DNA of 64,000 bases, taken from the NCBI RefSeq assembly GCF_032854445.1, contig NC_088302.1, positions 36,274,191-36,338,190 of the forward strand, read 5' to 3'. The DNA is from Liolophura sinensis. Lineage: Eukaryota > Mollusca > Polyplacophora > Chitonida > Chitonidae. The number at the start of each line of letters is the position of its first letter. The first letter of the stretch is position 1. Of this stretch, positions 4,899-48,069 are shown in pieces. The position numbers and the translations under genes were made by a program. The notes under the pieces were generated by a model. It was not told where the DNA came from and ran no database searches. It saw nothing but the letters and a program-made list of their open reading frames with translations.

Positions 4899-5011
4899 AT
4901 TGGTGGATAAATAACTGCACTTCGTGGCAGTCACAATGACATAAAAAGCGGGCCAGTTGTCGTTTGACATAATTATTTAGTGTACAAGTTTGGATGGGGA
5001 TAAGAGTCTGG
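4899..5011 (+). promoter_or_regulatory. Promoter and 5' leader exon of cyclophilin gene 1
   Basis: ATTGG at 4899-4903, CGTGG at 4923-4927 and a TATA-like ATAAAAAG at 4941-4948 precede a candidate noncoding leader exon that ends at 5011 with a strong donor (GTGAGT at 5012). The leader intron would run to the acceptor at 5613. The layout matches the other five genes: CGTGG/CCACG about 13-17 bp before TATA, and the donor roughly 60-110 bp after TATA. Transcription start is inferred near 4970, not shown. Confidence 0.6.
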
Positions 5012-5279
5012 GTGAGTAACACATAAACTGACTTTTACTAATGAAGAATTCTACAATTCCAAGATAACACAAATATACATTGTACACGCAACTTAGCTAA
5101 AGACGGCTTATTGAGCCAATTCTCTACAAAATATTACGATATTTTATTCACTAATTTCGACAACAACGCACTCCACTATGCGCATTAAATTAGTGCCTTT
5201 TTATAGGTGAGTATAAGATCATATTTTAGTAACAAAATTCATAAAAGAAAAAGTAAAAGAAAATAATGCACGGAAGTTT

Positions 5280-5487
5280 AAATTTATTTATTTATTTGAT
5301 TGGTGTTTAACACCGTACTCAAGAATATTTCACTTATACGACGGCGGTCAGCATTATGGTGTGAGGAAACCGGGCTGAGCCAAGCAGAAAGTCACAGCCA
5401 TCCACGGGATGTTGGAAGACCTTCCCATATACTGCCGGAGAGGAAGCCAGCATGAGTTGAACTCACAGTGACCGCCTTGGTGAGAGC
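5280..5487 (-). mobile_element. SINE family A in leader intron of gene 1
   Basis: TTTATTTATTTATTTGATTG tail, then ACACCGTACTCAAGAATATT, CAGCATTATGGTG and GAGAGGAAGCCAGC, in minus orientation. It ends about 130 bp before the exon 2 acceptor. Confidence 0.8.
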
Positions 5488-5620
5488 ACGGAAGTGCTGG
5501 TAAATCTTATACTTGGCAATATCTGGCAATATACTTACGTCTGCATTACATTTAATCATTCCGTTCACTGAAATGAATAATTCGTTTGTCGATTTCTCTC
5601 TTTTTCCATACAGAGAAACG

Positions 5621-8600
5621 ATGAAGCTGATGATATTCGTGTTTTTGGGATGTCTCTTATCCGTTGTGAATTGTGAGAACTACACGGTAACGGATGAAGT
5701 ATGGTTTGATATTGAGATCAGAGATTTCGACGGTGCGGGCGATGATTATAGAGGGCGCTTTGTAATCGGCTTGTTTGGTGACACAGTCCCTATGACAGCA
5801 TTGAACTTTGCCTCCATTGCCAATGGCTACGAGAGGCAAATAACTGGGGTAAGAGAGAATGTCCTAAAACAGTGAATTTTCATAGGTTAAATCAAGCTTA
5901 TCACAGAATCTGAACGCACCGGAATGGCCTCATAAATCACTTATGAATAAAACCATATCAAAGTTGTAGCTGCATATGGCCTGGAGTAGTAAAACATTGT
6001 GTTGGAGGCCGCAAAATTAAAAGAACACGTGATGAATTCGACCAATCGATAGACCAACTCACACGTAGCCTTTTTAACACGTAACGTCTGGTGATTCAAC
6101 TTGGGGTTCATTTTAGTACAGATGAAAACACAATCACAAATTCTGATAATGCTATGCCCCATATTTAATTTGCATTTGCAAGAAAACACAGAATCTTGTT
6201 AATTTTAAGGACAGTGTGCATAAAGTTTCCGATGATCACGCTACCGCTTCAAGTCATTAGGTTTTCCATGTATCTGTCCAAGTGCGGTAATATGTAAGAA
6301 GCCACTCACCAGTGCGGTCGTTGTGAGTTCATGTCATGCTGGCTTCTTCACCGGTCGTATGTGGGAAGGTCTGCCAGCAACCTACGAATGGTCTTGGGTT
6401 TTCCCAAAGCTCGGCTTCCTCGCACCATAAATCTAATTGCCCTCATATAAATGAAATATTCCTAAGTACATGGAGTATAACATCAGTAAAATGATATATA
6501 AAAAAGCTATACTAAAATCAATACTCATGGCACAAGTTTCATATCCAACGGTGGTTGGATTTGTTCTAATCCTTCGCGTTTTGTAAATGTTCTCAAAATC
6601 TACAGACGTGCCAAGACTTTCAAAGAACAGCTTTTGTTTTTCTGCAGAGGAAGAAGAAGAAGATCCAATACAAGGGAACACATTTCCATAGAATTGTTCC
6701 AGATTTTGTCATCCAAGGAGGAGACACTACCCACGGGGATGGACAAGGAGGTAGGTGGTAAATGATGAACGGGGTTGGGGAATGGTGCAGTGGGCATGGA
6801 GAGTTGAAGTAGTGCATCATGAGGAGATTGGTAGGGTACACGAGAAGATATAAGCTATGTTTTGTATTATCATTTGGATATTATTTGCAGCCAGGAAACA
6901 CAGTTTGAGGTGCGGATTTCGACCTTGGACAGTGAATTTGTATTCCCGTGTTTTTATTGTTCGTGGGGCCTTGGTGACAACAAGCGATCGATGGCGACTT
7001 TTTGGCCTTTTGTGCAGTCTTTAAAGTCCGCTTGTCGCCCACTAGCGTGGCTTGTATATCTGTATGGCACACGTAGGAAAGATCATCAATACGCTGCCAA
7101 ACATCAGTGGTTTATTCCCCATTCGCAAACGTTCTTCGCAAGAATAATATCAATATCAAACCACTTTACTACCATGTGTGAAAATACGATACATTTACTT
7201 CTTGCATTGTCTGACAGGTGAGGCTATATTCTGTCCTCAGTTTGTGGATGAAAACTTTCACCTGAGCCACAAGGCTGCAGGTTACGTGTCCATGGCTAAC
7301 CACGGCCCTGACACCAACGGCTCGCAGTTTTTCATCATACTGAGTAAGGCAAGGTGGTTGGATAAAAAACACGTGGTGTTTGGGAAAGTCGTGAATGGCA
7401 TGGTAAGTTGTATGTCACAATAAAAACTAGAACTCAATTGATCTCCGAGAACACAAATCTCAGCTACAGCCGAATATATCAATTCCACTATACCGTCAAA
7501 GGGACAGTACTCGGTATGGTATCTCAAAATGATGAAAAAAGGTTTAAAAAAATTCTGGATTCTGAGCCAATTCAATTTTCACCAAACTTGTGTACAAAGA
7601 GATAAAGCACTTGGCAGAAGGGAAGCATCGTTTAAGAGATTCTTTGACGGGATTCAGATTCTGATCTGTACCATAACTCAATGGATCGGTGTTGGTGTTA
7701 AAGGCCCAGCTGTGAACAATATTTTATCAAAATCCGTGAAATATAATTTTCACAAAGGTATGTGGCAATGGTGAAGAATCGTTTAAATGTCTGAAAAATG
7801 ATACACAGGCACGAGATTCGCTCAGAATTTAACTTTTTGTTTTATCTGATTGGTGTTTTACGGTGTACTAAAAATATTTCATTATGGTTGGAGGAAACCG
7901 GACAGAAGGAAACCCTGGGGGCGGGGACCCAGGACCATCCGTAGGTTGCTGGGTTTAAGCAAGCAGCTGTATGGAGACTGACTGAAAGGTTTAACTGGAA
8001 ACTTTTCAAATGCACCCATCAGGTTGCACGTGCACGTCAACACGCCTGATGCTTTCCACTATTTGGTGTATCCTGTAGATTAGCATTGCACAGTATGAAC
8101 AACCTAACAGTATTCTTTATTTATTCCCATTTATACAATAGTATTTTCCAGAAATATAAAAACCGTCATGAATATCTGTTACTTTTTGAATAGTATACAT
8201 CACACGACCTTCGATTATACACCACCCATTGGGAAATATGAAAAAAAAAACCAATGGGCATCATCTCTGTGATTATATTGAAAATAAGCTTGTTCATGCT
8301 CATTGATGTCGCCCATGGTATGAGCTTGACAGGTAAGGGTATGCAATGGACGCGAAGAGGTTGCAGTATTCTGGTATTGTCGCAATATTCTGTTGTTACT
8401 GAGGATTTTGTTTGTGGATAGTAACTCTGTCACATGTAAACAGGATAAATCAATATCAAGCAATAACAATTAATTTCGATGAATTATTTGATTTCCTTTG
8501 ATCAATTTAAATACAGTCTGAAACAATGCTTTGAATACATTTCAGGACGTTATTCGAACCATAGGAACTGTTGAGACGGATGAGTTTTCGCAGCCAAAGA

Positions 8601-8695
8601 AACGGGTAAAGATCATAGACTGTGGCGCCGATGAGGTGAAGAAATACACACTGACCGAGGGGCAGACATTATCCGACCAGGATATAGAACGCTAA
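5621..8695 (+). CDS. Secreted cyclophilin (PPIase), gene 1, divergent paralog
   Basis: Cyclophilin-type peptidyl-prolyl cis-trans isomerase predicted to enter the secretory pathway. Coding exons are 5621-5848, 6648-6750, 7218-7402 and 8546-8695, all flanked by AG and GT; joined they give 221 aa. The start at 5621 lies 7 nt inside an exon whose acceptor ends at 5613, and it begins a hydrophobic signal peptide ([18 protein letters not shown]) followed by an NYT sequon. Active-site residues equivalent to human CypA R55, F60, Q63, Q111, F113, W121, L122 and H126 are present ([26 protein letters not shown]). Position 103 is His (MANHG) instead of Ala. It is the outlier of the six: different signal peptide, one extra codon in the second coding exon (RKKKK), several substitutions in the third, and C-terminus ending DIER with a Cys lost (DCGA). 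There is no KDEL-type retention signal. SINEs lie in three of its introns. A polyadenylation hexamer follows at 8736. Family certain; exact cellular role unknown. Confidence 0.9.
6307..6500 (+). mobile_element. Degraded SINE family A in gene 1 intron
   Basis: TGTGAGTTCATG, GCTGGCTTCTTCACCGG, GGGAAGGTCTGCCAGCAACC and CACCATAA are recognisable, and the 3' end is eroded. Confidence 0.65.
7836..7960 (-). mobile_element. Truncated SINE family A in gene 1 intron
   Basis: TGATTGGTGTTTTACGGTGT, GGTTGGAGGAAACCGG and CCGTAGGTTGCTGG in minus orientation. Confidence 0.65.
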
Positions 8696-8735
8696 ACTTC
8701 ACAAGACGTTAGAAGTTCAAACCTTACGCAGACCG

Positions 8736-8741
8736 AATAAA
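8736..8741 (+). terminator. Polyadenylation signal, cyclophilin gene 1
   Basis: AATAAA about 40 nt after the gene 1 stop codon. Confidence 0.6.
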
Positions 8742-11490
8742 ACTTTAGCTGATTTCCACCATGATATGTAATAAAAAAAGTCCTGTGAAAATATAGCTTT
8801 TTATATAAGAAAAAGACTTGTGTTACATATCGGGCGAGAGTAAACATTTGCTAGATAAATAAAATTGCAATGATCATTGATGGACTTTCATATTGTTAGT
8901 AGCAAAGCGATGGCCTGCGAAGGAATGAAATGTAAGTAAAGAACAGCATTCAGTTGGCCGCTGCTATAAAAGAACGCCACAGATTGTGTACAAAGGATAA
9001 TCCAACAAAATAATTTTAAACAGTAATTTTTCATGTCCATGTTTAATTCATTGCCCTCAATCTCCCGCAGAGTTGTCATTGTGTTGACTACGCGATTAAT
9101 ACTATAGTACATTAGCGGAGTAGCCTAACATATCTTTCTGTATAATAACATCTTGCAGCTACTTAAATAAAGTATTTGCATTGCGTTATGATGTTCATGT
9201 GGAAGTTTCGTTATTTCGTAAATAGCCACATGATGGAATGATGGTAGGTTTTGATGTAAGTGGTCTCACCATCATTTAGGTTAGAGTCGATTTTGATATT
9301 TATATGATTGGTTTTTTACATTTTGTTAAAGGTCTATAGTATGTCTTTCATACTGTGGCTGCAAAATGTATTGGCGGAGCAAACCCGCGTGCTTTTGTGT
9401 TATCCAGGTACCTGACATACTTGTTGACATTCACATCCAAATTATACCGGGATCTTAGATTCAAACACGTGTCTACATTTAATGAATGGGTAGTCCTATT
9501 TTCAGAATAACAAATTAAGTAAAACAACCAGGCCCGTAACATTGTTAACTATCTTTACCGATAGACTCTGCATATGATATGTACATATCTTGTACATTTG
9601 CTATAGATTCTTTATGTTGTATGACGATTTCATTATAGTTAAAGCTTGATATATCTGATACAATGCCTAAATTTATAATAAGGTAAAAGGAACAAAAATT
9701 TATATCTGAGGACATGAGGGTATCGGCTGAAAAGTGTATTATAGCTAATACTGGTATTAGGTCATATTATATATTTACGATTTTAACAAACTCCAGCAAT
9801 CAATGCAATAGTGTAGAAATCAAATGGGACAGCAGCAGATTTAGTTCATATTTAATATACTTTTTATTCAAGTATTTTTGGAGTAAGTACAAACCTGAAG
9901 ACTTGGCTTAAAGTTAAATCCGGTATTAAGTCCTAGGACAGTTTTGAACAACTGGTCCCTGGTTTTCAAAGCAAACATATCTTTTCAAAACCATGGACAG
10001 TGAATGCGATCACGTGAACTGCCTGAAAACAGACATCCGCATACCAATCGTCAATCAATATAAACGTTCCAGATCAGTAGTCGCTAGGCCAATTCCTAAA
10101 AAGAACCATGAGGCAAACTTGAACAAGCAAGTTTCGAGCTTGTAGCCACATTAAAGATAAATTATTTTATGCCTATAAAGAGATACAAACCACAACTCTT
10201 CATTGGTACATTTAGTTGCGTATCAATGTGATGACAAACAACATTTTGAGCAAAATGCGAGAAATTCTGGAAACCACGTCTGTACTGTCTTACAACCGAA
10301 TTCTGCGAGAGAATAGCAGAATTTAAGAATCTTAAACTTTGAGAATTTTAAGAATATCCTTGTAACATTGGGTCTAGGTCTTACAACGGGTAATACTGGC
10401 TGATTAATGTGACAAATTCTCATGCTGGCTTCCTCTCCGGCCGTAAGTGGGAAGGTCTGTCAGCAACCTGCGAAGGATCGTCGGCTTCCCCCGAACTCTG
10501 CCTGGATTCCTCCCACCATAATGCTGTCCGCCGTTGTATAAGTGAAATATTCTTGAGTACGGCGTAAAATACCAATCAAATAAATAAAAAAATCAAATAA
10601 TGTGACATATTAAATACTGGACGTTCCAGTGCTAGTCTACGGTGAGAAAGTGATAATGTTTGTCAGCTGTTATCGCCATGGCGTTCCAGTGAGGTTGCAC
10701 TACAAATATCTCGCCTGCTATTCGAAAACGTGACGACGTGAAATCTCAGTCAGTGACTCAAAATCTTTTGAGATTTTCGTGATGTCTATAGATTAGTCAC
10801 AACAAAGTAAAGTTTATATCTTCCACATAAATTCACCTGACCGCCGTCGTAAAGGTCGTAACGATAACTAAATAGACATACAGGTAATGTGTCTTATAAG
10901 TTATGGCTTCAGAAAAATATATCCACATACAGATGGCTGGTTATAAAATCGATGTGTTTTATTTCGCAAATCAGACATTCATCCATGCATACACACATAC
11001 ATACAACCAATCAAGTGTAAATAAGCGTAAGCGGAACAGAGAAATAAGTCATTCTTCATACAGAAGAGTACATGCTCATAATCTGGTCCTTACTTTAAGT
11101 ATCAAATGCCGCAGTAAAGAAAATCACTACACACAAATAAACATACAAATTTATACACATGATTCACTTCTACTCCTTCTAATTTGAATACATACATATC
11201 TTTTTTTTGTAGCAACAACATCTGCAATGATCATGCAAATGAAGCTTAATCTACAGTATGGTCTATAAACTCTATCCATTTTCAACCAATTCTACCAATA
11301 TAAATATGCCAATATAATTTTGGCATCATCAGAACATCCGTAAGATGGCATCAAAAGAGATATATTTCACCCCTCATACATTTGTAGTGAGTGACACGTG
11401 ACTGTTTCGCTCAGTCAAAGCAAACTGTGTCTGTTGTAGGAGAGACAACAACGTCTCCTCCATACAACCCGTTGTTTTTATACTGTCTTT
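8742..11490. other. Intergenic region between genes 1 and 2
   Basis: No gene supported between the 3' ends of these convergent genes. It contains one SINE (10420-10600) and otherwise AT-rich sequence with short unrecognised ORFs. Confidence 0.6.
10420..10600 (+). mobile_element. SINE family A
   Basis: GCTGGCTTCCTCTCCGGCCG, GGGAAGGTCTGTCAGCAACC, CCCACCATAATGCTG and TTCTTGAGTACGGCGTAAAA, with an AAATAAATAAAAAAAT tail. Confidence 0.85.
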
Positions 11491-11498
11491 GTTCAAGT

Positions 11499-13903
11499 TT
11501 ATTCTCTGTCAATATCCTCGTCGGACTTTGTTTCGTCCTCGGTCAGAGTGTACTTCTTAACGTCCTCACAGCCACAGTCAATGACCTTGACCCTGGTTTT
11601 TGGTTTTGCGAAGTTATCTGTCTTGACATCTCCAATGGCACGGACGGTATCCTGTAAACCCAAATTTCCAATTATCTCAAATTTTTATTTCCAGTTATCT
11701 CATAAAAACAGAAATCTGTCATTGTGTCTATGAATTTGTCCCAATCCTCGGTTTAAAAAGAGTCATGTATCGTTTTTATTTCCCTGCAAGTATTTAAAGA
11801 TTTGTAGCTTAGAAAGTGTAACCAGCGTAATGCGGATTCAAACTGTGTTATTGGAGTATGCGAACAACATCCGGCTAAGTCCACCTTAATTCGTTACATT
11901 CTTTCCGCTGCATCCAGCAAGTACCTGGTTTGATCTGATCACTTCAAAGTAACATATTGCACGAGCTACTTTATTCAATTGTCCAACATTTAGAATAATC
12001 TGTTTTACATTTTTATTCGCTTAGATGTAGATACATACCATTCCCTTGACGACCTTGCCGAAGACGACGTGCTTGTTGTCCAACCATCTGGCCTTAGTCA
12101 GCATGATGAAGAACTGAGAGCCGTTTGAGTCTTGACCGTGATTTGCCATGGATACGTAACCAGCTGCTTTGTGGCTCAGGATGAAGTTCTCGTCAACGAA
12201 TTTGGAGCCATAAATGCTCTTGCCTGTTAAAACAAAAACAGATTATTATTATCATTATTAAATAAAGACAGTTATGGATGACGAACAAATGTTATCGATG
12301 GCAACCCAAATCGTTTGCGAAATGTTTTGCTTACACTGTGTATACAGACATTCTTGGTATGGTTAAAAATAGAGCTTGTAAATAACGTTTGCTGTGTATT
12401 ATCTTATACAACTCAAAATATTGCGCTGGACAAAGGGGAACAACTCATAGTTTTTTTAACGCAGGATTTACCTCCTGTGCCATCACCGACAGTGATATCT
12501 CCTCCCTGGATTACGAAATCTGGTACAACACGATGGAAGACTGAGTTCTTGTATGTCAGCTTTTCCTTCCTCTGCAAGTTAACGAAAAACAACAGATATC
12601 AATAAACGTGTTTCAATATCAAGGGTAATTAATTCACCATACACCAAGTTCCAGAATCATGAAGCTGACTCACGATTATCACAAAGGTCTTAATTAAATA
12701 CATGTTTCTATATAACCAATACAATAATTTTTATTTTAATACAGAAAGTAACAGTAACATGACACAACAAATATAATAATTAGTACTTAATGACAAACGA
12801 ATGATCAGGAATACGCACACTACTGTAGTTAAGAATATTTTATTTAGTTATTTGATAGGTGTTTTATGCCGTACTCAAGAATTAAGCATTACGGTGGGAG
12901 GAAACCGAGCAGAACCCGGGGCAAAGCTAAGAAGTTAACTGTCTTAACATAAGACAGCTTTGGAACTGATTTAGAAAAGCCAGTTTTGAATTGATCAACG
13001 TATATCTTCAGACATTCTAATGAAGACTGATTTTTCTAAAAAGAACGTCAATGAAGCGTATTACTCATAGTAGCAAGAAATAGGCACTTATTCTCAATAA
13101 AACTTCAGTTTTATGGGAAAAAATGGTTTCAACAACAAACAGTTCCCATTGTACATATGTGACAAGTACAAATAACCCTGCTGGAAATGGTTTGCAATGG
13201 AGCAAAACATAGAGAACAAAAACTAAAAACAAACCAAAAATAAAGCACACGAACCAATTTTAAATGTATTTAACTAATTTGTTTCTATGTAAGAACAATT
13301 TTTCTCACTATCTAAAGCCTACATGTAATGAGAATTAATTTCTGTGGTGCGCTTGATTAACAATGTCATTCTGTATATTAAGTTTATTGCATATATTTTC
13401 TCATAGCACGTATACACTTACAACTACATTCCCATTTACGTCGCACTTGTTATAAGGCATGTCTTCAGTATATGTTCTATAATCGTAAAGCCACCACTTT
13501 TTAATAGCTGGATATGCAGGATCGCCATGGGAACTAGCAATATAAATGCAATTTATCAAGGCAAAACTTTTGAAAGAAACTTGGTTCTGTTTTTTTGTGC
13601 ATGGATTACATTCACTTGGCTGACATCGCTAGGTAGCTACTTATTGCATATGTGCTTGAAAATACCGCTTACCCCATTTTTGTCCTTGCGCTCGAATCCG
13701 TTTGTGATGGAGGCGAAGTTCATGACTGTCATTGGTGTAGTTTCTCCGAAAAGTCCGATCACAAATCTTCCCCTGTAGTCCTCTCCGGGTCCGTCATAAT
13801 CCCGGATTTCAATATCAAACCAGGCTTCTTTTGTGACGGTGTAGTTATCACAGTATCCCATGGAAATAACGGAGGCCAAGGCCAACAACAGTAACGCCGC
13901 CAT
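11499..13903 (-). CDS. Secreted cyclophilin (PPIase), gene 2
   Basis: Minus-strand cyclophilin B-like isomerase. Coding exons in transcript order are 13903-13673, 12571-12472, 12223-12039 and 11651-11499, giving 222 aa. The ATG at 13903 lies 8 nt inside an exon with acceptor TTGTGTTGTAG. Signal peptide [18 protein letters not shown], then an NYT sequon. The catalytic set is complete ([25 protein letters not shown]), with His at the CypA-103 position. Its first exon matches genes 3-6 almost base for base up to the FER codons, then changes to RKDKNG where the others have TTKSG or TTKEG. It also has a Ser in QDSNG where the paralogs have Thr. The C-terminal tail is acidic (DEDIDRE). An AATAAA overlaps the stop codon (minus strand, 11498-11503); no better polyadenylation signal was located. 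It is divergent to gene 3 across a 4.9-kb spacer. Lumenal or extracellular folding, or a matrix role, is inferred. Confidence 0.92.
12836..12925 (-). mobile_element. SINE 3' fragment in gene 2 intron
   Basis: GATAGGTGTTTTATGCCGTA, CTCAAGAAT and GGTGGGAGGAAACCGAGC in minus orientation; truncated. Confidence 0.65.
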
Positions 13904-16481: not shown

Positions 16482-16643
16482 GGGTCGCTGTGAGCTCATG
16501 CTGGCTTTCTCTCCGGCCGCAAGTGGGAAGATCTCACAGCAACCTGCGGATGGTCGTGCTCTGCCCAGTTTCCCCTCACCATAATGCTGGCCGGCGTCGT
16601 ATAAGTGAAATATTCTTGAGTATGGCGTAAAACACCAATAAAA

Positions 16644-16678
<35 letters not shown>

Positions 16679-19589: not shown

Positions 19590-22073
19590 ATGGCGGCGTT
19601 ACTGTTGTTGGCCTTGGCCTCCGTCATTTCCATGGGATACTGTGATAACTACACCGTCACAAAAGAAGCCTGGTTTGACATTGAAATCCGGGATTATGAC
19701 GGACCCGGAGAGGACTACAGGGGAAGATTTGTGATCGGACTTTTCGGAGAAACCACACCAATGACAGTCATGAACTTCGCCTCCATTACAAACGGATTTG
19801 AGAGAACAACAAAAGAAGGGGTAAGCTGAATGAAGTTGTTGTCTTTGTACACAAGCAGTAAAATATCATGTTGAGATTTTACACATTTACTCTCCCTTTC
19901 GGTAAGCCAAATTAATCAATTAAATGAAGGTAAACTAAATCTAGTAAATATGAAATATGATTAAGCCATATATTTCTTTGGCAAATTCCGTACTTGCCAC
20001 TTAGTTTTCCTATTATTAAGCCATATATTTCTAGCCACATTCCAGTTTCGCCTCTAAGGAGTTCTTCATATTAAGCCATATAATTCTGGGCAGATTTTAT
20101 ACAAATTGCCATTTAAGTTTTCCTAATAAAATTTCTAGGCAAATTCCATACATGACAGTTGGCACTTCCTATTATTAAACCGTATAATTCTAGCCGATTG
20201 AAGACTTGCTACCTAGTATTTTCCTAGTATTAGTATACTGTCATTTGGGACGGGACAAGTTGTTGGTTACTACATGGGTAGCTTTTGTTAGAGACGTTCT
20301 GAGTTGGAATATTGGAGATTTAGCTACAAAGCCTTCAGGGAAAGGGTTCAAAACTAGATGTAGTCAGCCAATTTCCAAGGAATAGTTTGTGTACTGTACT
20401 CAGATAAAGCAACTCTGAATAATTATAACACTTCCCCTATGATATACAGGGTGTCCCAGAAGTCGCGTACCATCCAGAGCGGTGTGTTGCCCCATCTCTT
20501 CCAAACATAAAAACCATTTCAGGTGTTTCTTGTACAGTTAGTTTATTAGCCATAATTAACTCTGAAAGAGGGGAAAAATATAAAATCAGTATTAAATCTG
20601 AAACACAGAAAAAAAAATGAAAATAAGGATGGTGTGCGACTTCTCGGACACCCTGCACAATGATCTACGCAAATCTGTAACGGTATATAAGCAATATGTC
20701 GTGTTCTCTTTTCGCAGTATAAACAAAAACTGACATACAAGAGCTCTAACTTCCATCGCGTTGTGCCAGACTTTGTGATCCAGGGCGGAGATATCACATC
20801 TGGTGATGGTTCAGGAGGTAAGACATAATTTTATTTGCTTACTTCTTTGGTGTTTTACACACATATCGTGTTTAGTATAGTTCCAGTATGATGGGTGGAG
20901 AAATCATTCAGGTAGAGTCTTGCTGAAACTATCACATCTCGCCTAGGATCTGTCAAGGAATCTTCGTGGCCTGGTTGTTAGCATGCTGGCGCAGCACAAT
21001 AACCCAGGAGCCCTCACCTTGACTTTCTCTCCAGTCGTACTTGGGAAGGTCTGGTAGTAACCTTTGAATGGTGGTGGATTTCCCTAGGGCTATGGCCAGT
21101 GTTTTCTCACAATAATGCTGCCCGCTCTCGTATAATTGAAATATTCTTGAGTACGGCGTAAACACGAATCATATATATAACTAAATAAACAGAATCTGTC
21201 AGATCTTCCCACAAAAACCTATCTTTCATAACTGTAAACAGATACTGTGTCTATTGTCCATAAACCCGGAGCTAAAGAAAATATCCTGTAAAATTACAGG
21301 GATGTATATACCTCTGTTGACATTTTTAAAACTCAAAGTGGTAAGTATGGCTAATATATGCTCTCTTTATTTTTTAATAGGTCAAAGCATCTATGGCTCC
21401 AAATTTGTTGACGAGAACTTCATCCTGAGTCATAAAGCCGCTGGTTACGTATCCATGGCAAATCACGGGCAAGATACAAACGGTTCTCAGTTCTTCATCA
21501 TGTTGACCAAGGCTAGATGGTTGGACAACAAGCACGTCGTCTTCGGCAAGGTCGTCAAGGGAATGGTAAGTAGACTTAGGATGTTCGTTTTAAAAATGGT
21601 AATTCACGATTGGACGTGAATTGTGCTGTGTGAATTTCACCTGAGGATTTGAGTTCTGTTTATGTTAGTCGACTAATTTAAAGTCAATTTTTTTAATGAG
21701 AATCAATATCCAAACCTCACAGTCCTTATCAATATATATATATATAATGAATGCAAGTATTTATAAATAAAATAGCTGATACCCTTGCAGTCCAGGTCTT
21801 GTTTCCAACTATTAAAATATTTATTTAAATATTTAAACATTTATTTAAGTATAAACCTCTATTTTGCTAATGTGGCACACATTTCTGTACTCTTATTGCT
21901 ATGAACTTCTTTTATTACAGGACACAATCCGTGCTATAGGAGACGTAAAAACCGATAATTTTGCCACACCCAAGAATAGGGTCAAGGTCATTGACTGTGG
22001 ATGTGAAGACGTCAAGAAGTACACGCTGACCGAGGCCGAGACACTCTCTGAGGAGGACGTCGACAGGGATTAA
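19590..22073 (+). CDS. Secreted cyclophilin (PPIase), gene 3
   Basis: Cyclophilin B-like secreted isomerase. Coding exons are 19590-19820, 20718-20817, 21381-21565 and 21921-22073 (222 aa). An open frame extends upstream of 19590 through the intron, but the acceptor TTTTGTAG ending at 19581 and the [18 protein letters not shown] signal peptide set the start at 19590. The mature part has the lengthened acidic loop ([11 protein letters not shown]) and the basic loop split by the first coding intron (TTKEG, then [10 protein letters not shown]). Catalytic residues are complete: [31 protein letters not shown]. The second coding exon starts YKQK rather than the RKEK of genes 2 and 4-6. The tail ends DVDRD. 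The first coding intron carries a minisatellite and a MITE-like element, and the next carries a SINE. AATAAA lies at 22163. Convergent with gene 4 across about 5 kb. Confidence 0.93.
19962..20235. repeat. Imperfect minisatellite in gene 3 intron
   Basis: About five degenerate units of roughly 50-60 bp, each with a form of TTAAGCCATATATTTCT, then GCAAATTCC and a TTTTCCTA element. Confidence 0.65.
20447..20655. mobile_element. MITE-like element in gene 3 intron
   Basis: 209 bp. The left end starts CAGGGTGTCCCAGAAGTCGC; the right end, reverse-complemented, starts CAGGGTGTCCGAGAAGTCGC, and the inverted repeat extends about 29 bp with three mismatches. No transposase ORF, so a non-autonomous DNA element is likely. 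Ends about 60 bp before the next exon. Confidence 0.7.
20964..21188 (+). mobile_element. SINE family A in gene 3 intron
   Basis: Head-like GCCTGGTTGTTAGCATGCTG, GGGAAGGTCTGGTAGTAACC, CACAATAATGCTGCCCG and TTCTTGAGTACGGCGTAAAC. Confidence 0.75.
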
Positions 22074-26337: not shown

Positions 26338-26615
26338 TTTATTTATTTAATTATTCTTGAGCACGGGGTTTTACGCCGTGCTCAAGAATATTTCACTTAT
26401 ACGACGACAGCTAGCGCTATGATGACAGGAAACCGGGTAGAACCCGGGGGAGGTTTCCGACCATCCGCAGGTTTCCGCCAGACCTTCCCACGTACGACCG
26501 GAGATGAAGCCAGCATGAACTGGACTTGAACTCACAGCGGCGGCATTGGTGAGAGGCTCCTGGGTCATTGCGTCGCGCTGGCGTGCTAACCCCACGGAGG
26601 CCAGGGAGGCCCCCG
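26338..26615 (-). mobile_element. SINE family A, full-length, with hairpin at its 3' end
   Basis: ACGCCGTGCTCAAGAATATT, CGGGTAGAACCCGGGGG, CCTTCCCACGTACGACCGG, GAAGCCAGCATGAACTGG and a head with GGTGAGAGGCTCCTGGGTCA in minus orientation. The 3' 14 bp is repeated inverted at 26353-26366, making a hairpin with 26376-26389. Confidence 0.8.
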
Positions 26616-27043: not shown

Positions 27044-29030
27044 CTATTCTCGGTCAAGGTCCTCGTCAGACTTTGCCTCAGCCTCTGTCAGGGTGTACTT
27101 CTTGACGTCTTCACATCCACAGTCAACAATCTTAACTCGGTTCTTGGGTCTGGCGGTATCGTCTGTCTTGACATTTCCAATAGCATTGACGGTATCCTAC
27201 AACAGAAAATACGGATACTGTAGATATTAACTACGCATTGGTAGCAGTGATCAAAGAAGACGGAAATGTGTGTTCGAGTGAAAAGGCTAAATGATCCCAA
27301 ACAGACAAATGTCTTTCATCCATCTGTTTTAACATACAGGGAACTATATCAATTTCGTAAAATACGGCACATCATCAAAAAGCTGCGATTTTACTTACCA
27401 TTCCCTTGACGACCTTGCCGAACACGACGTGCTTATTGTCCAACCATCTGGCCTTTGTCAACATGATGAAGAACTGAGAACCGTTTGTGTCTTGTCCGTG
27501 GTTTGCCATGGATACGTAACCAGCGGCTTTGTGACTCAGGATGAAGTTCTCGTCAACAAATTTGGAGCCATAAATGCTCTGACCTGTATACGAAAAAAAA
27601 GATCACAGCAACCTATCGTTGAAAAGGAAGAAATAACAGAAAAATTCTAGTGACGGGTTTTAAAGGGATGATATTCCTTTCCACACACCCTGTGATTGGT
27701 CCACTGTTGTTCATTCATGATTTTTAACCAATCATATACTACAATCAACTGACCTACTTCTTTAATCTCTTGTGATCAAAATTCAAAATGGTGGACGTTT
27801 AAACTTGTGTAAGCATGCATAAAAAGCTTTTTACGAGCATGATAACTTATAATTCAGAGGAATTACAGTTTAAAACGTCCAGCACCTCTCCTTGTGTCCG
27901 TCAGTTACTTTGCCAGCAATGTACGTTATGAGCGCCGATCATTGCTCTATATCTGAAACGATGTACATGATGCCCTGGACCCAATTGTTCACAAGCGTAT
28001 CAGCAATTAAATCCAGGAGTAATTTTAGGCTGGACTAAAGTGCCATTAGTTTTGCATTAGGTCAAGACTAAATACGATCTAAGCCTGGTTTAACTTATAA
28101 TGCAATTTTGTGCATTACAACCGTTTCCGAACTCACACCAACCATCCAATACATACCTCCTGTTCCATCCCCAACCGTGATATCTCCCCCCTGGATGAGA
28201 AAGTCGGGAATAACTCGGTGGAAGTTCGTGCTCTTGTAGGTTAGTTTCTCTTTTCTCTGTAAAATATGAAATTGAGAAAATATACTTTATGCTCTGAGAA
28301 GTTGATCCAGTGCCTTAAAGGCCCGAAAAGATGGACAATCACACAGTATGTGCTTGATACAATACATGTCACCCATACCATTTGTATAAAGTGATTGTAG
28401 ATAACAATGGAAGGTTGACTATGCTCCCCAGTTTTACTTTTTGATTTTAATACTGTATCCTGTTAGGTGAATTAAAACTTTAAATAAATAATATCCATGG
28501 TAAGATTACAGCTGGTTACCCGAGAGAATTTTGATCTTCAAAGAAGTACATACGGTGCACCCATTTATGATTTACCTGTGGTATTCGAATGTCGGACGTG
28601 AGATGTTGCCAGAACAGCTTACTGTTGGTCCAAATACTATCCAAAAATCACGATTTAATGGAAACATGTTCTCTACAAGGCGCAAATTTAAAATCAGAAA
28701 TAGTGATATCGTTATATAGCACCACCACATGGATCGACGAAGCGCAAAAAACTATCCACATTAAGATAAAAGGTCAGATACCGTGTAATTTTAACTCACC
28801 CCCGATTTTGTTGTTCTTTCAAATCCGTTTGTGATGGAGGCGAAGTTCATGACTGTCATTGGTGTGGTTTCTCCGAAAAGTCCGATCACAAATCTTCCCC
28901 TGTAATCCTCTCCGGGTCCGTCAAAATCCCGGATTTCAATGTCAAACCAGGCTTCTTTTGTGACGGTGTAGTTATCACAGTATCCCATGGAAATAACGGA
29001 GGCCAAGGCCAACAACAGTAACGCCGCCAT
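27044..29030 (-). CDS. Secreted cyclophilin (PPIase), gene 4
   Basis: Minus-strand secreted cyclophilin. Coding exons in transcript order are 29030-28800, 28256-28157, 27583-27399 and 27196-27044 (222 aa, stop TAG rather than the TAA of the others). The start follows the acceptor GTCTGCAG at 29039-29040. An in-frame upstream ATG (29117) lies in the intron and would bury the signal peptide, so it is rejected. Active-site motifs are [25 protein letters not shown] and WLDNKH. The last exon differs from its paralogs at several sites ([30 protein letters not shown]). Gene 4 is the most compact member and its introns hold no recognised repeat. It is divergent to gene 5, whose promoter has the same ATTGG-N12-CCACG-TATA order. 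Predicted to be a lumenal or secreted prolyl isomerase; substrate unknown. Confidence 0.93.
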
Positions 29031-37322: not shown

Positions 37323-39793
37323 ATGGCGGCGTTACTGTTGTTGGCCTTGGCCTCCGTTATTTCCATGGGATATTGTGATAACTACACCGTCACAAAAGAA
37401 GCCTGGTTTGACATTGAAATCCGGGATTTTGACGGACCCGGAGAGGACTACAGGGGGGAGATTTGTCATCGGACTTTTCGGAGAAACCACACCAATGACA
37501 GTCATGAACTTCGCCTCCATCACAAATGGATTTGAAAGAACAACAAAATCAGGGGTGAGTTAAAATAGATACAATATTTCTCGCTTCATAGATTAAGTGA
37601 TTTTTGTGTGGTTTTAGGGGCAAATTCATTGTGATGTGTATGTCAGCATGGATCTAATGTAAAACCATGATGGTAAAAGGATAGCGTCTGGGCCAGTAAT
37701 GATGTGGTAAAAGTAAACGAAAGTGAGAAATGGATGACCATTGAAGGTACATAAAAATGTCGTTATTACTGAATTAAATGAGGTCAAAAGCTTCAGTTCT
37801 GAGGTGGGCTTTGTGAACCATGCTTATGGTGAATGTTGGATATACCATTGGTAAGACAATAGGCGCTTTTACTCTTATTTTTACATTTGGAAGAAATTCT
37901 TTTATGGATTGAATTTTTTTTTCACCATGTAATTTTCTTTCCTTTCCAACATTTTTTTTTGCACCATGTGACTTTTACAGCGCCCTATTAACATAGCTAT
38001 TTTGGGGAAGTGATAAAAATAATTGGTGGAAAGCCCGTTATAGCCATCTGAAGTTCTTTAACCTGTTAACCATGCTTTGGTCGTTATAATTAAAATGGTC
38101 TTTGGCCATAACTGGATGCTGTTACAAGCCTTCAGCGTACAAAAAGAACATATTATTGTAAGTTTATATATACTTAGGAAATGAAGTCGTTATATGTTGC
38201 TGCTTTACAGAGAAAGGAGAAACTGACTTACAAGCGCACCAACTTCCACCGAGTTGTGCCAGATTTCCTCATCCAGGGAGGAGATATCACAGTTGGGGAT
38301 GGCACAGGAGGTATGTGGAGTAATGTGGACAAAGAGTGGTTGGTACATAAGTTAGGACAATGTACAGCGTGTCAGTTATGCCCCTTGTTTATCCACTGTC
38401 AATCATCTGAAGATGTAGATCAATGGATTGTAGAATTGGATTGATTAAAACTTATGAATTATAAAGAATGAACCCATCGGGGAGTATATGAAAAGGGTGT
38501 ATATAGAACTAGGAAGTAGAAAGGGAACTCACATGAAAAGGGTTATCTATGATATAAATATTACAGACATTGGTTGATGTAAATCAGGACAGTGTACATT
38601 ATGTCCTGAACAAAAATCTTCTGCTCAAGGACATAGTTTGGTGAATTGCATGCGATCAGTGTACGACCTACATAGAAACGTGGGGCATTTATGGTAGCTG
38701 TGAAACCAACATGAAAGGTCTACCAGTTTGCACCAGTCAAAACAAAATGCAAAAATGAGAGTAGTTATTGATGAATGGCGCTATGTAAACGTTACAAGAG
38801 CGTGGGAATGTAGCACAATGCAGTTAAATATAACGAACAAAAATCTTTAGGTAGTAATACACAAAACTGTACGGAGTTTGTTTATCACATCGCCTGTTGG
38901 TGGAATATATCTAGTATTTCCTACATGGACTCATATACAAGTCGCCAACGAATATATTCTCTCGTTTGTATACAGGTCAGAGCATTTATGGCTCCAAATT
39001 TGTTGACGAGAACTTCATCCTGAGTCACAAAGCAGCTGGTTACGTATCCATGGCAAACCACGGCCAAGACACAAACGGTTCTCAGTTCTTCATCATGTTG
39101 ACCAAGGCCAGATGGTTGGACAACAAGCACGTCGTGTTCGGCAAGGTCGTCAAGGGAATGGTAAGGCTAAAATGCTTTCTCTTCTACAATGTATGATTTG
39201 AACATTTACTGCGTCTTTATGAAAACCTACTAACTCTTTCTCTTCATATGACTCCGTCCTAGTATCTTGCCGTTCATACTTCATATAACTCTTTTGTGGT
39301 ATGAGTTGAACGTTGTTTTGAAAGGTCTTGCTATCATTGACCTGAAACATCCACATATTGTTTGGCGATTTTGACAACGTCTTGCTTGATATTGTTCAAT
39401 TTAAGTTTTCGAAATTTTGCATCAGAAGAAGAAATAACTAATGAGAGCTCCGTCATTTACTGTCAATTCTGATATAATTTTCTTATAGCCTAAAGCTATC
39501 ATCACTTTTCGTCATTTACTATCATTTCTGATATAATTTTCTTATAGACTAAAGCTATCATCACTTTTAAGTATTGATCTTTCAGCGGGTTTAGCTTTTG
39601 TGTGACCATCAAATCTTAACTCAGTCTTGAATCATTGCAGGAAACTGTCCGTGCTATCGGTGACGTGAAGACTAACGATTCAGCCATGCCCAAGACTCGG
39701 GTCAAGGTCATTGACTGTGGATGTGATGACGTCAAGAAGTACACAGTGACAGAGGCCGAGACAAAGTCTGACGAGGACCTTGACCGAGAATAA
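37323..39793 (+). CDS. Secreted cyclophilin (PPIase), gene 5, frameshifted in exon 2
   Basis: Coding exons are 37323-37554, 38211-38310, 38976-39160 and 39641-39793. Exon 2 is 232 nt instead of 231: the run of G at 37453-37458 has six bases where gene 6 has five, so the frame is lost after EDYRG and regained only in another frame ([13 protein letters not shown]). Everything else is intact: signal peptide [18 protein letters not shown], splice sites, [31 protein letters not shown], tail DEDLDRE, promoter and AATAAA (39908). Apart from the extra base the protein would be 222 aa and nearly identical to gene 6. The insertion is either a homopolymer error in the assembly or a very recent inactivating mutation; the absence of any other damage favours the first or a young allele. 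It lies in a 5.3-kb unit duplicated at 43.3-48.5 kb. Confidence 0.85.
39451..39568 (+). repeat. 59-bp tandem duplication in gene 5 intron
   Basis: Two units starting CGTCATTTACT at 39451 and 39510, differing at a few bases. The matching gene 6 intron shows no such pair. Confidence 0.75.
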
Positions 39794-39907: not shown

Positions 39908-39913
39908 AATAAA
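39908..39913 (+). terminator. Polyadenylation signal, cyclophilin gene 5
   Basis: AATAAA about 115 nt after the stop. A second AATAAA overlaps the stop codon itself (GAATAAATC), and both are shared with gene 6. Confidence 0.6.
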
Positions 39914-40920: not shown

Positions 40921-41299
40921 GGGCTTTTTGGTTCGGACACGATATATTCAAACCCGGTAAAATCCTTCATAATGGATGACAGTGAATACGTCTGCTCTCA
41001 AGCGGACTTGAGCAAATGACTACGAGCTTCACAACTCCGTCGCTCATATTTATAGACTATTATAAAGAAAATTCTGGATGGTTTGATCGTAAACATGTAT
41101 ACAACACCGATACATATTTCCAGAATGTATACCCTACGTACACTGACACTAAACTCATGAACTCCGAAGCCTCGAGAACGCTCCACTGAATTACAGCGCA
41201 GGGAAAATGTAGGTCAGACACATGACTAGGTAAACTCAAGTACAAATAAAAAAATGTAATACAATATTTAAAGACTGCATTCGTAACATTTATTACAGC

Positions 41300-42130: not shown

Positions 42131-42139
42131 CAGGAATTC

Positions 42140-42560
42140 TGGGCTGGGGTACGTGATAAAACAGCGATATCCATCGGATTTGAAAGCGCGACCTCGCTGA
42201 TCAGGAGACGATCGGTTGCGGCGAGGGTAACACTTTGGCCTAATGCTGTGACATGCAAAACACGTTACCTTGTTTGTGCGCAATGACACGCCATGAGCTC
42301 AGTCATGGAGATTATCCAGTTTTGTTTGACAACAGTCAGGGTTTATTTGAAAGCATCTGATCCTAGATAAAACGTGTTTACAAACTCTTCTCTGAACTCT
42401 CACAATGGTGAACATCGATAACAAGCTGGTTAGAGTATCCACAGCACTGTGATTAGCTCATCACTCTGTAGTAAGTCACTTGGTCGTATCCCAAGTCCGT
42501 TTAGCGGAGTCCGAAGAGTCTCACTGCCGCACACAACAGCTGGAACACTCTTGAAATCTG
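42140..42560 (+). repeat. Direct repeat, copy 1
   Basis: Shares with about 43040-43480 the block CATGAGCTCAGTCA, GGAGATTAT, AGTCAGGGTTTAT and then TGTAGTAAGTCACTT. Gene-free. Confidence 0.6.
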
Positions 42561-43039
42561 CTTGTATATTGTATATTGTATAAGTTATAATACCATACTT
42601 ATGAACTGTTTGACTTAGGTTTTATGGGGAAGCACACGGTGTTGGACTACCCACTCTAGGAATTTTTTGAACAATGAAAGTTCTCTGAAACCAGACACCG
42701 ATGTAATATTGCTGTGTTCATGTATCCGAAGTCAAATTTTCTTTTGAAAATGGTCAGATGATCATTTGCATAACTATGCTCAGTGTATGCGAAACGAGAG
42801 ACGCTAAGACTAACAGACTGCCCGGACTTTATTCATTTATTTGTTTGTCTAGTGCTCAGCAGAGTTCTTGAGCATTTTTATTTTCGTTCTCTTGGGTTAA
42901 GTAATCCGGAGATCCCCGAAGCTAGCTACCGCGTTTCGCGAGGTACGTACTTTGCATTGAGAACCATCCGTTTAGAGCTCGCGACCTGTCGGTTAATAGA
43001 CGGCCGGCTGAGACGACGATAACACTTTGGCTCCGTGAT

Positions 43040-43480
43040 GTAACATATTAAAACCGTAACAAGACGTCCTTGAAACTCTAGAGAGAACCATAGGATCCGA
43101 ACCGGCGACCTGGCAATCACTGGACCGCCAGCTGTGGCAAGGATAACTTTTTTGCCTGATGATGACTTATTGGAACTAATACCAACACACGTTGTCTCAT
43201 TTGTGGATAAAGACACCCCATGAGCTCAGTCAGGGAGATTATGTCGGACAATAGTCAGGGTTTATCTGAAAGCATGTAATCATGTGTTTACAAACTGTTT
43301 CTCCCCTCCCTCCCTCCTCCGAGTGGTGAATGTTGCTAACATGCTGAGTAGTGTATTCACCACCATGTGATTAGCTCTTATATCTCTGTAGTAAGTCACT
43401 TAATCGTACCCCAGGTCCGTTTAGTCTAAAGATTCTTAGTGTCGCACATCGCAACAGCTGGAACACTGGGGCATACCTAT
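43040..43480 (+). repeat. Direct repeat, copy 2
   Basis: Same block order as about 42140-42560. It runs into the start of segmental duplication copy 2. Confidence 0.6.
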
Positions 43481-43503
43481 GGTGACCCGTCTTCGCCCAG
43501 CAT

Positions 43504-43520
43504 CCCCCCCCCCCCCCCCC
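43504..43520. repeat. 17-base C homopolymer
   Basis: Uninterrupted C run. Its length is unreliable in most sequencing technologies. Confidence 0.9.
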
Positions 43521-44466
43521 ACTTCCCTCCTCAACACACATTCACACATGCATTGTCCACGTCAAAGTAAAGACGTGCTGGATGAAAGTATAAATTTTGG
43601 TGTGTAAATAGCTGACTCTGTCGGTATTCTGTATCTATTGATTTTTTGGAGTGGAATGAAACAAGCTTTAAGCGATTTGATAATATTTGGTCTCACATAA
43701 GTAGCACAAAGAAATAAACACCACACAAACAGTATTTCGCTTATATCGCTCTCTCTCCGAAAAGCTCAATAGGATCTTCAAGTTATAATTTGCATTTATA
43801 AGTCGTTACCGTTAGTTCACATTCTGGTTATTTATTTTATTATGGTGTGTTAAGTCTTCCATTCATTTATTAATAATGGCGTTGTGAAAGTAACGGGAAT
43901 GAATAAGTTTGACATACTAGTAACACATTACAGGCTGTATTGTTATGCAATGTCACGATGAAAAACATTTAATTTCTCTGAGAATAATTTAAATATTGAA
44001 ATTCACTTCTATTTTTTTATATTTGCGATAATAAAACCGTTCACTTGAGCGACGGCGGGCATGTAAGAAATCGTGTGGCACAGCTTTTAGCAACTTAACA
44101 ATAGTTGGATTCGAACCTGTGTCCTCTTTGGCAGAAGCCACTCACTGATAGTTGAGTCCCGATTAAAAATAACTGAAACCTCAAAAACAAATCTTTCCCA
44201 CGTTCCATTGGATGTATCTGGGTCGCCAAAAGTTTAGACGTCCTTCCACAACTGTCATATCTACACAATTTTTTAAACCACATTATAGGAACATGATCAA
44301 GGAAAAGACTGTTGTTTTAACCTTTCAACATTTCTTACCAAACCTATATACATTTGTTCAAGAAGATTTGCAAACCGTAAATAAGACACCTATTTTCAGT
44401 CTCAATTTTTATTCATTTTGTGAAATAAAAAAAGGTTAAGATAGAAAAGCGTCGAAGGCTGGGGGT

Positions 44467-44574
44467 GCGTTGATTCTCAGTACTATGTATATCAGTGATA
44501 TAGTTTCCAAACTTAACGGTGCGTTGATTCTCAATACTATGTATATCAGTCATATAGTTTCCAAACTTACCGAT
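44467..44574 (+). repeat. 54-bp tandem duplication
   Basis: Two units starting GCGTTGATTCTCA at 44467 and 44521, differing at about four bases; absent from the copy 1 counterpart. Confidence 0.8.
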
Positions 44575-45233
44575 ATCCACTGAAAACTGCCAGCTTGGCG
44601 ATTAGTCTGGGCTCTATGTTTTCTGTAGATTGCGTTATAATTATTTTGCTCACACTTTTTGTGTTAACCGCTTTGTGTGCTAATTACGCGCTCTAATTTA
44701 TTAAGTGCTCAATTTATACGCTTGAATTGTCTTCCCCAGGTAATTCTCCTATATTCTTACGCAAATGTATAAAATTAAGAAAGAAAATGTCCAGCATATT
44801 TTGTTTGTGGTTCCATATGTAAATTATGATATAAAAGTCATCTACACTAAGTAAAAATTCAAAAAGGAGAACGTTTCATTTCGTATATGTATTGTCAAAG
44901 TCTCTTTCTGTATTTAAAATAACACTGGAAATTTTATTCCACGATGATTACATGTTATATAAGTGTTCAAATTCTTAAATAGGTAGAAATATAATAATTA
45001 ACTTACACATTTCTGTGGATTAATGCTAAATGAAAAACAGAGAACATTATTTGTATTTAGGTATGTATTTAGGTAATGAGGAAGCCATGAGTTGGAAACC
45101 GGAGGTGGTATAAACACATTACACAGCTGTGTCCCACCGGATTGTTGTCAGCATCAACGTTGCCAACGCATCCATCCAACATGCCTGCGTGGTATCGTCG
45201 ATTTAAGGTCTGGCAACAGTTCTTGTTCCAGTA

Positions 45234-45349
45234 ATTGGTCCACCTGTCTGCCACGAAACCTGACCAGGACTGATTATAAGCTGTAAAGGTCAGTGGACTT
45301 CATTCAGGCTCTCCAATCTTGGATGTACCTCTTCATCTGAGACAGCAAG
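45234..45349 (+). promoter_or_regulatory. Promoter and 5' leader exon of cyclophilin gene 6
   Basis: ATTGG 45234-45238, 12 bp, CCACG 45251-45255, 17 bp, TATA-like ATTATAAG 45273-45280, then a leader exon ending at 45349 (GCAAG before GTAAGT). The acceptor ends at 45774. Near copy of the gene 5 promoter with a changed TATA box (AATATAAG to ATTATAAG). Confidence 0.7.
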
Positions 45350-45782
45350 GTAAGTTCACTGTTATTATTTCTATTTATGTGAAATATTATTATATTCGTG
45401 ACAATTCGACCCGTTTATAAACTTTTGACACTTAATTTATTGCAAAATTATCTTTGGTTCGAACAGTATTATTTTCATTTTTCATGAATCAGCTAGAACT
45501 ATTCAGATGTGAATAATATTAAGCATTGGATAAGAAAGCATGGTAATACTATAAACAGTGATCTCGTGCACCTGTGGTTTATCTTTAACGCCAGCCGTAT
45601 ATCATCTATATGATTGTTTATTACATTAAGAGGGTATCATACGATTGGATGTCATTGAATGTTATACATTATTTTACATTTTGGTATAAGTTATGCTGAA
45701 ATTATGATATGAATTTATTCATTTAGACATTGGAAGAGACAGTATTGAACGTTTTTATGTTGATTGTCTTGTAGGTACCATC

Positions 45783-47949
45783 ATGGCGGCGTTATTGTTG
45801 TTGGCCTTGGCTTCCGTTATTTCCATGGGATACTGTGATAACTACACCGTCACAAAAGAAGCCTGGTTTGACATTGAAATCCGGGATTTTGATGGACCCG
45901 GAGAGGACTACAGGGGGAGATTTGTCATCGGACTTTTCGGAGAAACCACACCAATGACAGTCATGAACTTCGCCTCCATCACAAACGGATTTGAAAGAAC
46001 AACAAAATCAGGGGTGAGTTAAAACCGACACATTATTTATCGCTTCTTAGTTTAGATGATTTTTCTGTAGTTTTTAAGACAAATTATTTGATGTGTAGAA
46101 AAAGACTAGGTCATAAAATGTTGCATTTATTCGTGTACGGTCCCAATTTACCACCATGATGGTAAAAAGATAGCATCCAGGCCAACAATGATGTGGTTAA
46201 AGTAAAAGAAAGTAAGAAAAGATTGGCCACTAAAACTATTGATCTCTCTGAATTAAATGCTATTTAAATGCTTTAGTTCTAAGATGGGCTTTGTGAACCA
46301 TAGGGATAGTATTGGATTTGATTTTGACGAGGGTCTGGGAACTTTGACCTCTTTTTACCTTTGGAGGAAATTTTTGTTGATTGTGTCGTGTATTATGCAC
46401 CTCTGTTCACTAACGAACTCAACGGGTTTGGCTTAAATCCAAATTGTGACGTCATTGACATCATTACTATGGGTCATGTTGCCTATGTTAGATGTCTGTA
46501 TTAAAAATTTCATTTAATTTCTTTGCTTTCTTTGACTTTAACATAGCTATTTTGGGGGAATAATAAAACTATTCAGTGGAATGGCGGTTATAATTATCTG
46601 AAGTTCTTTACCAGTTAACCATGCTCTGGTTTGTATAATTAAAATCGTCTTTGGCTGTTGCTGTTACAAGTCACATGTGTACAAAAAAGAGACATGTTAT
46701 TGTTAGCTTATATATGCTTGGGAAATAAAATCGTTGTACATGTATGTTGCTGTTTTACAGAGAAAGGAGAAACTGACTTACAAGCGCACCAACTTCCACC
46801 GAGTTGTGCCAGATTTCCTCATCCAGGGAGGTGATATCACAGTTGGGGATGGCACAGGAGGTATGTGGAGTAACGTGGGCAAAGAATAGTTTGATACATG
46901 AGTCAGGGCAAATTAGCTCTATACATCGAGTTTAGTTGTATGCAAAATCTATCTGACTGTACATCTGAGTAAATAACCCTATGAAAGCTATAAATGCATA
47001 ACAAAACAATAGCACGCAGTTATATATAACAAACAAAAGTCTTATAACAGTAATTCATGCGGGCAATTTTACTAGTTTATTAGTGTAGGTGGAACACATC
47101 TAGCATTTCCTGCATACGTTTCAAGTAAAAGTCGCCAATGAATATGTTTCCTTGTCTGTATATAGGTCAGAGCATTTATGGCTCCAAATTTGTTGACGAG
47201 AACTTCATTCTGAGCCACAAAGCCGCTGGTTACGTATCCATGGCAAACCATGGTCAAGACACAAACGGTTCTCAGTTCTTCATCATGCTGACTAAGGCCA
47301 GATGGTTGGACAATAAGCACGTCGTTTTCGGCAAGGTCGTCAAGGGAATGGTAAGAAAAAATACTGTCTTCTTAAGGGTACGATTTGGATATTCCTTGTG
47401 CCTTTATTGGAAACAACTCACTGCTTTTTTATATGACTACGACTTAGTTTCTTGCTGTCTATACTTCCTTAATTATTTCTGTGGTTTGAGTTGAATGTTG
47501 TTTTGAAAGTTAGTCTTGCTATCATTGACCTGGAACATCCATATATTGTTTGGCGATTTTTACCACGTCTAGATTGGGATTGTGCAATTTTAATTTTTGA
47601 AATTTTGCGTGAGAAGAAGAAAATAACTAATGGCATCTTTACTATTATTTCTAATATAGGCCTAAGCTTATTGTAGGCTTAATCTTACAGCTCGCTAAGT
47701 ATTGATCAGATCTGAGGGACAAAACGTACTTATTCTTTCAGCGCGTTTACCTTTTATGTGACCATCAAATCTTAATGCAGTCTTGAATCATTGCAGGAAA
47801 CTGTCCGTGCTATCGGTGACGTGAAGACTAACGATTCAGCCATGCCCAAGACTCGGGTCAAGGTCATTGACTGTGGATGTGATGACGTCAAGAAGTACAC
47901 ATTGACAGAGGCCGAGACAAAGTCTGACGAGGACCTTGACCGAGAATAA
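45783..47949 (+). CDS. Secreted cyclophilin (PPIase), gene 6
   Basis: Intact tandem copy of gene 5. Coding exons are 45783-46013, 46761-46860, 47166-47350 and 47797-47949 (222 aa). The signal peptide [18 protein letters not shown] is followed by NYT. The isomerase core carries FHRVVPDF (R55 and F60 equivalents), IQGGD, SMANHG, TNGSQFF and [10 protein letters not shown], with the Trp associated with cyclosporin binding. Compared with human CypA there are two longer loops: an acidic one after the first strand ([10 protein letters not shown]) and a basic one after the first helix ([17 protein letters not shown]), the latter crossed by the phase-0 intron. The C-terminus extends about 23 residues past DCG and ends in SDEDLDRE, with no KDEL. 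The leader-exon acceptor differs slightly (GTAG followed by GTACCATC before the ATG, where the paralogs have ACACCATC). This is the cleanest member to use as reference for the cluster. Confidence 0.95.
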
Positions 47950-48063
47950 ATCACACATTTCATTTGTCTTCATATAAAAACACACATAATTAATTTAGGC
48001 ACTTTATGCACGATCGTTTTTCATTTTCACTTGTATAACTGTTGTATATGAAATTTTTTGGAA

Positions 48064-48069
48064 AATAAA
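48064..48069 (+). terminator. Polyadenylation signal, cyclophilin gene 6
   Basis: AATAAA about 115 nt after the gene 6 stop, in the same context as in gene 5. Confidence 0.6.

Follow-up and report, generated by a model that had tools for sequence, protein, structure and literature searches.

A cluster of six cyclophilin genes in a chiton

How can neighbouring genes be near-identical in two of their four coding exons and deeply diverged in the other two? The question is raised by a stretch of 64 kb of the Liolophura sinensis genome (C8:36274191-36338190), called the window below. The assembly was built from 14x HiFi reads and published under the name L. japonica, with 632 scaffolds, the longest of 96,433,062 bp, and an N50 of 37,343,639 bp (PMC11068029); the species was later corrected to Liolophura sinensis (PMC12441733). 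The mollusc setting implied by an initial annotation, which had been made from the letters of the window, is right, the animal being a chiton. The cluster of cyclophilin genes that it described is real and well built, though partly misdescribed as regards the frame of g5, a leader exon and an exon architecture that is not special to these genes.

Using translated searches and splice-site inspection, we placed the coding sequences of six loci at 5621-47949, in the orientation + - + - + + (Table 1). These tandem loci of secreted type have four coding exons each, predicted signal peptides and a match to PF00160 (148.5 bits against a gathering cut-off of 21.7, E 2.4e-43), and they stand far above chance, since they are the strongest matches across the 609 Mb genome. 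All introns are GT-AG, with phases 0/1/0. The coding exons measure 228/103/185/150 nt in g1 and 231/100/185/153 nt in g2-g4 and g6. At the protein level g2-g6 are 90-100% identical to one another and 66-67% identical to g1. The picture of a uniform six-copy set thus holds for the four exons and their phases but not for g1, which is set apart by its lower identity and its own exon sizes.

The claim of six complete gene models holds for five as assembled (g1-g4 and g6) but not for g5. Its exon 1 is 232 nt long and has six G at 37453-37458 on the + strand, against five in g6, with a stop after residue 70. The extra G is either a true lesion or a homopolymer error of the assembly, and error is a live option because coverage was 14x HiFi and a nearby ULK3-like gene carries more apparent homopolymer indels. 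Leaving the extra G aside, g5 and g6 differ by a dN of 0.002 and a dS of 0.11, a closeness that points to constraint on g5 up to the very recent past, unless the extra G is an error of the assembly.

Pfam and protein searches of the 609 Mb genome, followed by gene modelling, gave a family of nine members. Six are the genes of the cluster (C8:36.28-36.32 Mb), which does not make up the entire family; the other three lie elsewhere, h8 and h9 at C8:12.179-12.190 Mb and h7 at C1:74.4543-74.4566 Mb. An ordinary PPIB gene (C8:12.171-12.173 Mb) adjoins h8 and h9, within about 18 kb.

Table 1. Cyclophilin genes and associated features, in positions of the window
Feature	Position	Exons or counterparts	Strand	Basis and remarks
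g1, intact divergent copy, 221 aa	5621..8695	exons 5621-5848, 6648-6750, 7218-7402, 8546-8695	+	translated search, gene model
g2, intact, 222 aa	11499..13903	exons 13903-13673, 12571-12472, 12223-12039, 11651-11499	-	gene model
g3, intact, 222 aa	19590..22073	exons 19590-19820, 20718-20817, 21381-21565, 21921-22073	+	gene model
g4, intact, 222 aa	27044..29030	exons 29030-28800, 28256-28157, 27583-27399, 27196-27044	-	gene model
g5, frame broken in exon 1	37323..39793	exons 37323-37554, 38211-38310, 38976-39160, 39641-39793	+	gene model
g6, intact, 222 aa, tandem partner of g5	45783..47949	exons 45783-46013, 46761-46860, 47166-47350, 47797-47949	+	gene model
Homogenised exon 1, g2 example	13673..13903	counterparts 19590-19820, 28800-29030, 37323-37554, 45783-46013	-	91-97% identity, equal-length copies
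Homogenised exon 3, g2 example	12039..12223	counterparts 21381-21565, 27399-27583, 38976-39160, 47166-47350	-	92-98% identity
g1, possible promoter element and noncoding leader exon (CATAAAAA ... donor GTGAGT)	4940..5011		+	TATA-plus-donor scan, sequence inspection; candidate

Divergence of g2-g6 exon by exon

Where two of the copies g2-g6 encode the same residue, their codons differ in 9.7% (exon 1) and 16.4% (exon 3) of cases, whereas exons 2 and 4 reach 34.3% and 32.9%, respectively. Pairwise dS, counted with the extra G of g5 omitted from the codon frame, ranges from 0.10 to 0.29 in exon 1 and from 0.12 to 0.52 in exon 3. With the g5/g6 pair set aside, exon 2 gives values of 0.68-1.0 or saturation and exon 4 values of 0.58-3.4; most of these estimates, made on 23-34 synonymous sites, are close to saturation or have reached it. 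The introns of g2-g6 are about 45% identical, which is the chance level. Outside exons 1 and 3, identity falls in most pairs from 91-98% to about 25%, again the level of chance, within 20-40 nt. A permutation test against an even spread of differences gave p <= 0.0126 in nine of the ten pairs (all except g5/g6) and p = 0.00005 in four, the ten pairs not being independent of one another.

A recent burst of duplication, after which fast evolution was confined to exons 2 and 4 and to the introns, would explain why the g2-g6 proteins are 90-100% identical and their exon 1 and exon 3 DNA 91-98% identical. However, exons 2 and 4 approach saturation at their synonymous sites, the introns are unalignable, and dN/dS below 0.3 in these two exons speaks against fast protein evolution. 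Only g5/g6 are moderately young. Divergence this deep in the introns and in exons 2 and 4 means that the cluster as a whole is not a recent burst, an explanation that we consider highly improbable.

The exceptional pair, g5 and g6, is a younger tandem pair, with homology that begins at about 35.16 kb and 43.41 kb, respectively. A block of 97-99% identity takes in exon 4 and the 3' flank, exon 3 has a dS of 0.29, and the introns are near 62-74% identity.

Gene conversion as the probable cause

The reading that we favour, with a probability of about 0.8, is that these genes belong to an old family of PPIB/PPIC type encoding probably secreted, active isomerases, that exons 1 and 3 of g2-g6 have been homogenised by gene conversion, and that the copies add dosage. 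Interlocus conversion among g2-g6 would repeatedly rewrite exon 1, which encodes the signal peptide and the first strands, and likewise exon 3, which encodes much of the active-site wall. Exons 2 and 4, which are shorter, would escape and diverge, as would the introns. Conversion would be limited to exon 1 (231 nt) and exon 3 (185 nt) since no other stretch that still pairs is as long, and presumably no other offers enough homology. Exon length is the likely reason for these limits, as judged from the four exons. The g5/g6 exception fits conversion too, since the flanks of these two genes still pair. The copy on chromosome 1, h7, would take no part.

Selection on synonymous sites for splice enhancers, codon optimisation or RNA structure, acting with no exchange of DNA, would predict homogenised blocks that match exons, not random tracts, as the blocks in fact do. 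Yet compared with h7, g1 and h9, exons 1 and 3 show strong synonymous divergence, so silent-site selection has not frozen them; between h7 and the cluster, dS is about 2 or more in exon 1, which amounts to saturation, and 1.0-3.2 in exon 3. Codon usage alone predicts a mismatch of 43% in exon 1 and 47% in exon 3, for exon 1 four times more than is seen, and mixed leucine codons (TTG, TTA, CTG, CTT) are kept position by position. We regard selection of this kind as quite unlikely to be the explanation.

Homogenisation mediated by reverse transcripts was considered and rejected, as it would also cover exons 2 and 4. Moreover, the exon 1 block takes in intronic bases before the acceptor, where g3/g5 and g3/g6 are 80-85% identical from -40 to -21.

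Trees of the separate exon sets were also compared by AU tests, which gave p-AU 0.19 for g5 grouped with g6 in exon 3 and p-AU 0.43 for exons 2 and 4 with g2-g6 grouped without h7. The exon sets are too short to reject alternative trees, and on their own these tests fall short of proving conversion.

Gene conversion of this kind has counterparts in other animals. In Tigriopus californicus, conversion between GOT1Sd and GOT1Sr is, as in the chiton cluster, mostly limited to exons, with an unalignable intron and one damaged frame, but it involves two genes, whereas five take part in the chiton and only two of four exons are homogenised (PMC3728101). Exon-restricted conversion with unalignable introns has also been discussed for Caenorhabditis (PMC3966223). 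In the literature searched we found no description of exon-limited concerted evolution in this cyclophilin family. The family is of an ordinary kind, with a clear pattern of exon-limited concerted evolution, and trees of such clustered gene families mislead, since near-identical exons make old copies resemble a recent burst. With the dispersed h7 as a built-in reference, and four exons of unequal length, the cluster offers a natural experiment on the length of homology that conversion requires in a mollusc.

Relation to PPIB and PPIC

Among solved structures, the best relatives of the family are PPIB and then PPIC. In a protein tree the nine members form one clade (100/100) on a stem of 1.22 next to PPIB/PPIC, most internal branches being poorly supported. 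The family falls outside the PPIB clade, in which chiton PPIB pairs with human PPIB (81/73). Chiton PPIB, 76% identical to its human counterpart and ending in PFAVAKEPAKE, has the phases 0/1/0 and the same intron positions as the family, with exons 2 and 3 of 103 and 185 nt; exon 3 is 185 nt long in all family members as well. The shared exon architecture, which the initial annotation had stressed, is therefore inherited; it represents the ancestral PPIB layout and does not mark specialisation.

The family resembles canonical PPIB (the chiton protein and human PDB 1cyn) in its cyclophilin domain, signal peptide and most catalytic residues, and, in the comparison with chiton PPIB, in intron positions and phases. 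Identity is nevertheless only 49-57%. Relative to PPIB, family members carry a 6-residue insertion after the first strand, not far from the N-terminus. In addition, the loop preceding the HRV motif is longer, the Met61 position holds Val or Leu, and an acidic tail replaces the ER-retention-type one.

These relations suggest that a PPIB/PPIC-type gene founded the family, two members of which still lie beside PPIB at C8:12.18-12.19 Mb, and that one family lineage would have given rise to the six-gene cluster, with a further copy on C1. The case for an origin on the PPIB side is made by the neighbourhood, the intron positions and the closest similarity. The split itself may far predate the present neighbourhood, because the stem branch is long.

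One other cyclophilin of the genome, the PPIC-like L034 (C8:9.816-9.826 Mb), has the PPIB intron positions and an active-site wall that reads GGPDTNTSQFCF in place of NGSQFF.

Predicted export and possible roles

Aligned with human PPIB, the proteins retain R, F, Q, A, N, F, W, L and H at the catalytic positions. From the CypA set (R55, F60, M61, Q63, A101, F113, W121, L122, H126), only M61 is changed, to Val or Leu in every member, so that the active site, noted earlier as conserved, is nearly complete. The products of g1-g4 and g6 begin with a hydrophobic stretch that ends in NC or YC and also have a cyclophilin domain and an acidic tail, and by eye their N-termini do look like the signal peptides that had been proposed. 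Across the coding sequence dN/dS is 0.02-0.15, and the copies are therefore kept functional by purifying selection. The calculated pI of the cluster family proteins is 5.3-6.6, with about 10% Gly. The acidic tail (KKYTLTE...DEDLDRE) shows no KDEL-like end, and all members are without the PFAIAKE-type ER-retention tail. In h7 the C-terminus is changed, with EGLNVPLRTKDLSLI where the others have DEDLDRE.

As PPIB and PPIC are the closest relatives, the proteins could instead be ER-resident folding factors, PPIB-like and not secreted. This we think rather unlikely, given that the PFAVAKE-type tail of chiton PPIB is swapped in the family for an unrelated acidic one, with nothing KDEL-like at the end. 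Purifying selection acts on proteins whose catalytic site is nearly complete, which carry predicted signal peptides and which have lost the PPIB tail; taken together, these sequence features make exported prolyl isomerases our best guess. Exported and active, they would assist the folding of extracellular proteins, and near-identical copies would mainly raise dosage. The near-identity of exons 1 and 3 points towards sameness, and hence dosage, over specialisation, with exons 2 and 4 leaving room for divergence.

A role in shell or mantle secretion had been proposed on the strength of a prolyl isomerase in the shell matrix of Lottia gigantea, a report borne out by PPI_LOTGI (B3A0R0; PMC4094399). 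Like the chiton family, that protein is a molluscan extracellular prolyl isomerase of cyclophilin type, but its listed pI is 4.75 and its listed Gly content 13% (PMC4094399). The cluster could accordingly be a matrix family of shell, sclerite or radula amplified for chiton biomineralisation, which would be compatible with gene conversion. Besides the Lottia protein and the predicted secretion of the family, a mollusc cyclophilin orthogroup that includes shell-matrix hits (PMC8059625) fits such a role, as do pearl-sac expression in Pinctada and a skeletogenic cyclophilin of sea urchins, both as cited within PMC7820862. Dreissena shell peptides assigned to cyclophilin (IVIGLFGK, VLEGMSVVR; PMC4877012), on the other hand, match the canonical PPIB type rather than the cluster family, because chiton PPIB holds IVIGLFGK exactly and the family has FVIGLFGE/D. 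The pI of the Lottia protein also lies below the range found here, and the main text of the paper on the radula proteome of Cryptochiton, searched in full, mentions no isomerase. Peptide strings of the family had no match in the full texts searched. On balance a biomineralisation role appears doubtful. A still bolder version, in which a chiton-specific battery of secreted isomerases serves shell plate, girdle or radula, with the converted exons supplying dosage and exons 2 and 4 fitting the copies to their substrates, is a long shot. If expression were to tie the family to mantle or radula, biomineralisation studies would gain a concrete folding enzyme.

Upstream regions and other features of the window

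All six copies have a splice acceptor 8-9 nt upstream of the ATG, which makes an intron in the 5' UTR of every copy likely. The initial annotation had given all six a noncoding leader exon. BLAST, an ungapped motif scan and a TATA-plus-donor scan found no upstream leader exon common to the copies, and only g1 has a plausible one (Table 1); in the same scans, nothing was common to the upstream regions apart from a dispersed SINE-like repeat and the acceptor close to the ATG.

No tRNAs or Rfam RNAs were found in the 64-kb window. Downstream of the cluster, at 52674-54159 (+), lies the ULK3-like gene, which is intronless and encodes protein kinase and MIT domains. The reading frame breaks at two places, near 53140 and near 53870, apparently where short homopolymers have changed by 1 nt, so that the gene is either a decayed retrogene or marked by homopolymer errors of the assembly; we found no close second copy of it. 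The SINE-like repeat occurs at 5278-5369, 10496-10601, 16559-16664, 26341-26432, 56218-56309 and elsewhere in the window, and its 32-nt core (TTCACTTATACGACGGCGGCCAGCATTATGGT, <=2 mismatches) has about 31,000 occurrences in the genome, against 0 in a reversed control. Two short tandem repeats, with units of 99 nt and 31 nt at 60395-60592 and 55884-55978, respectively, resemble diverged pieces of this SINE-like repeat.
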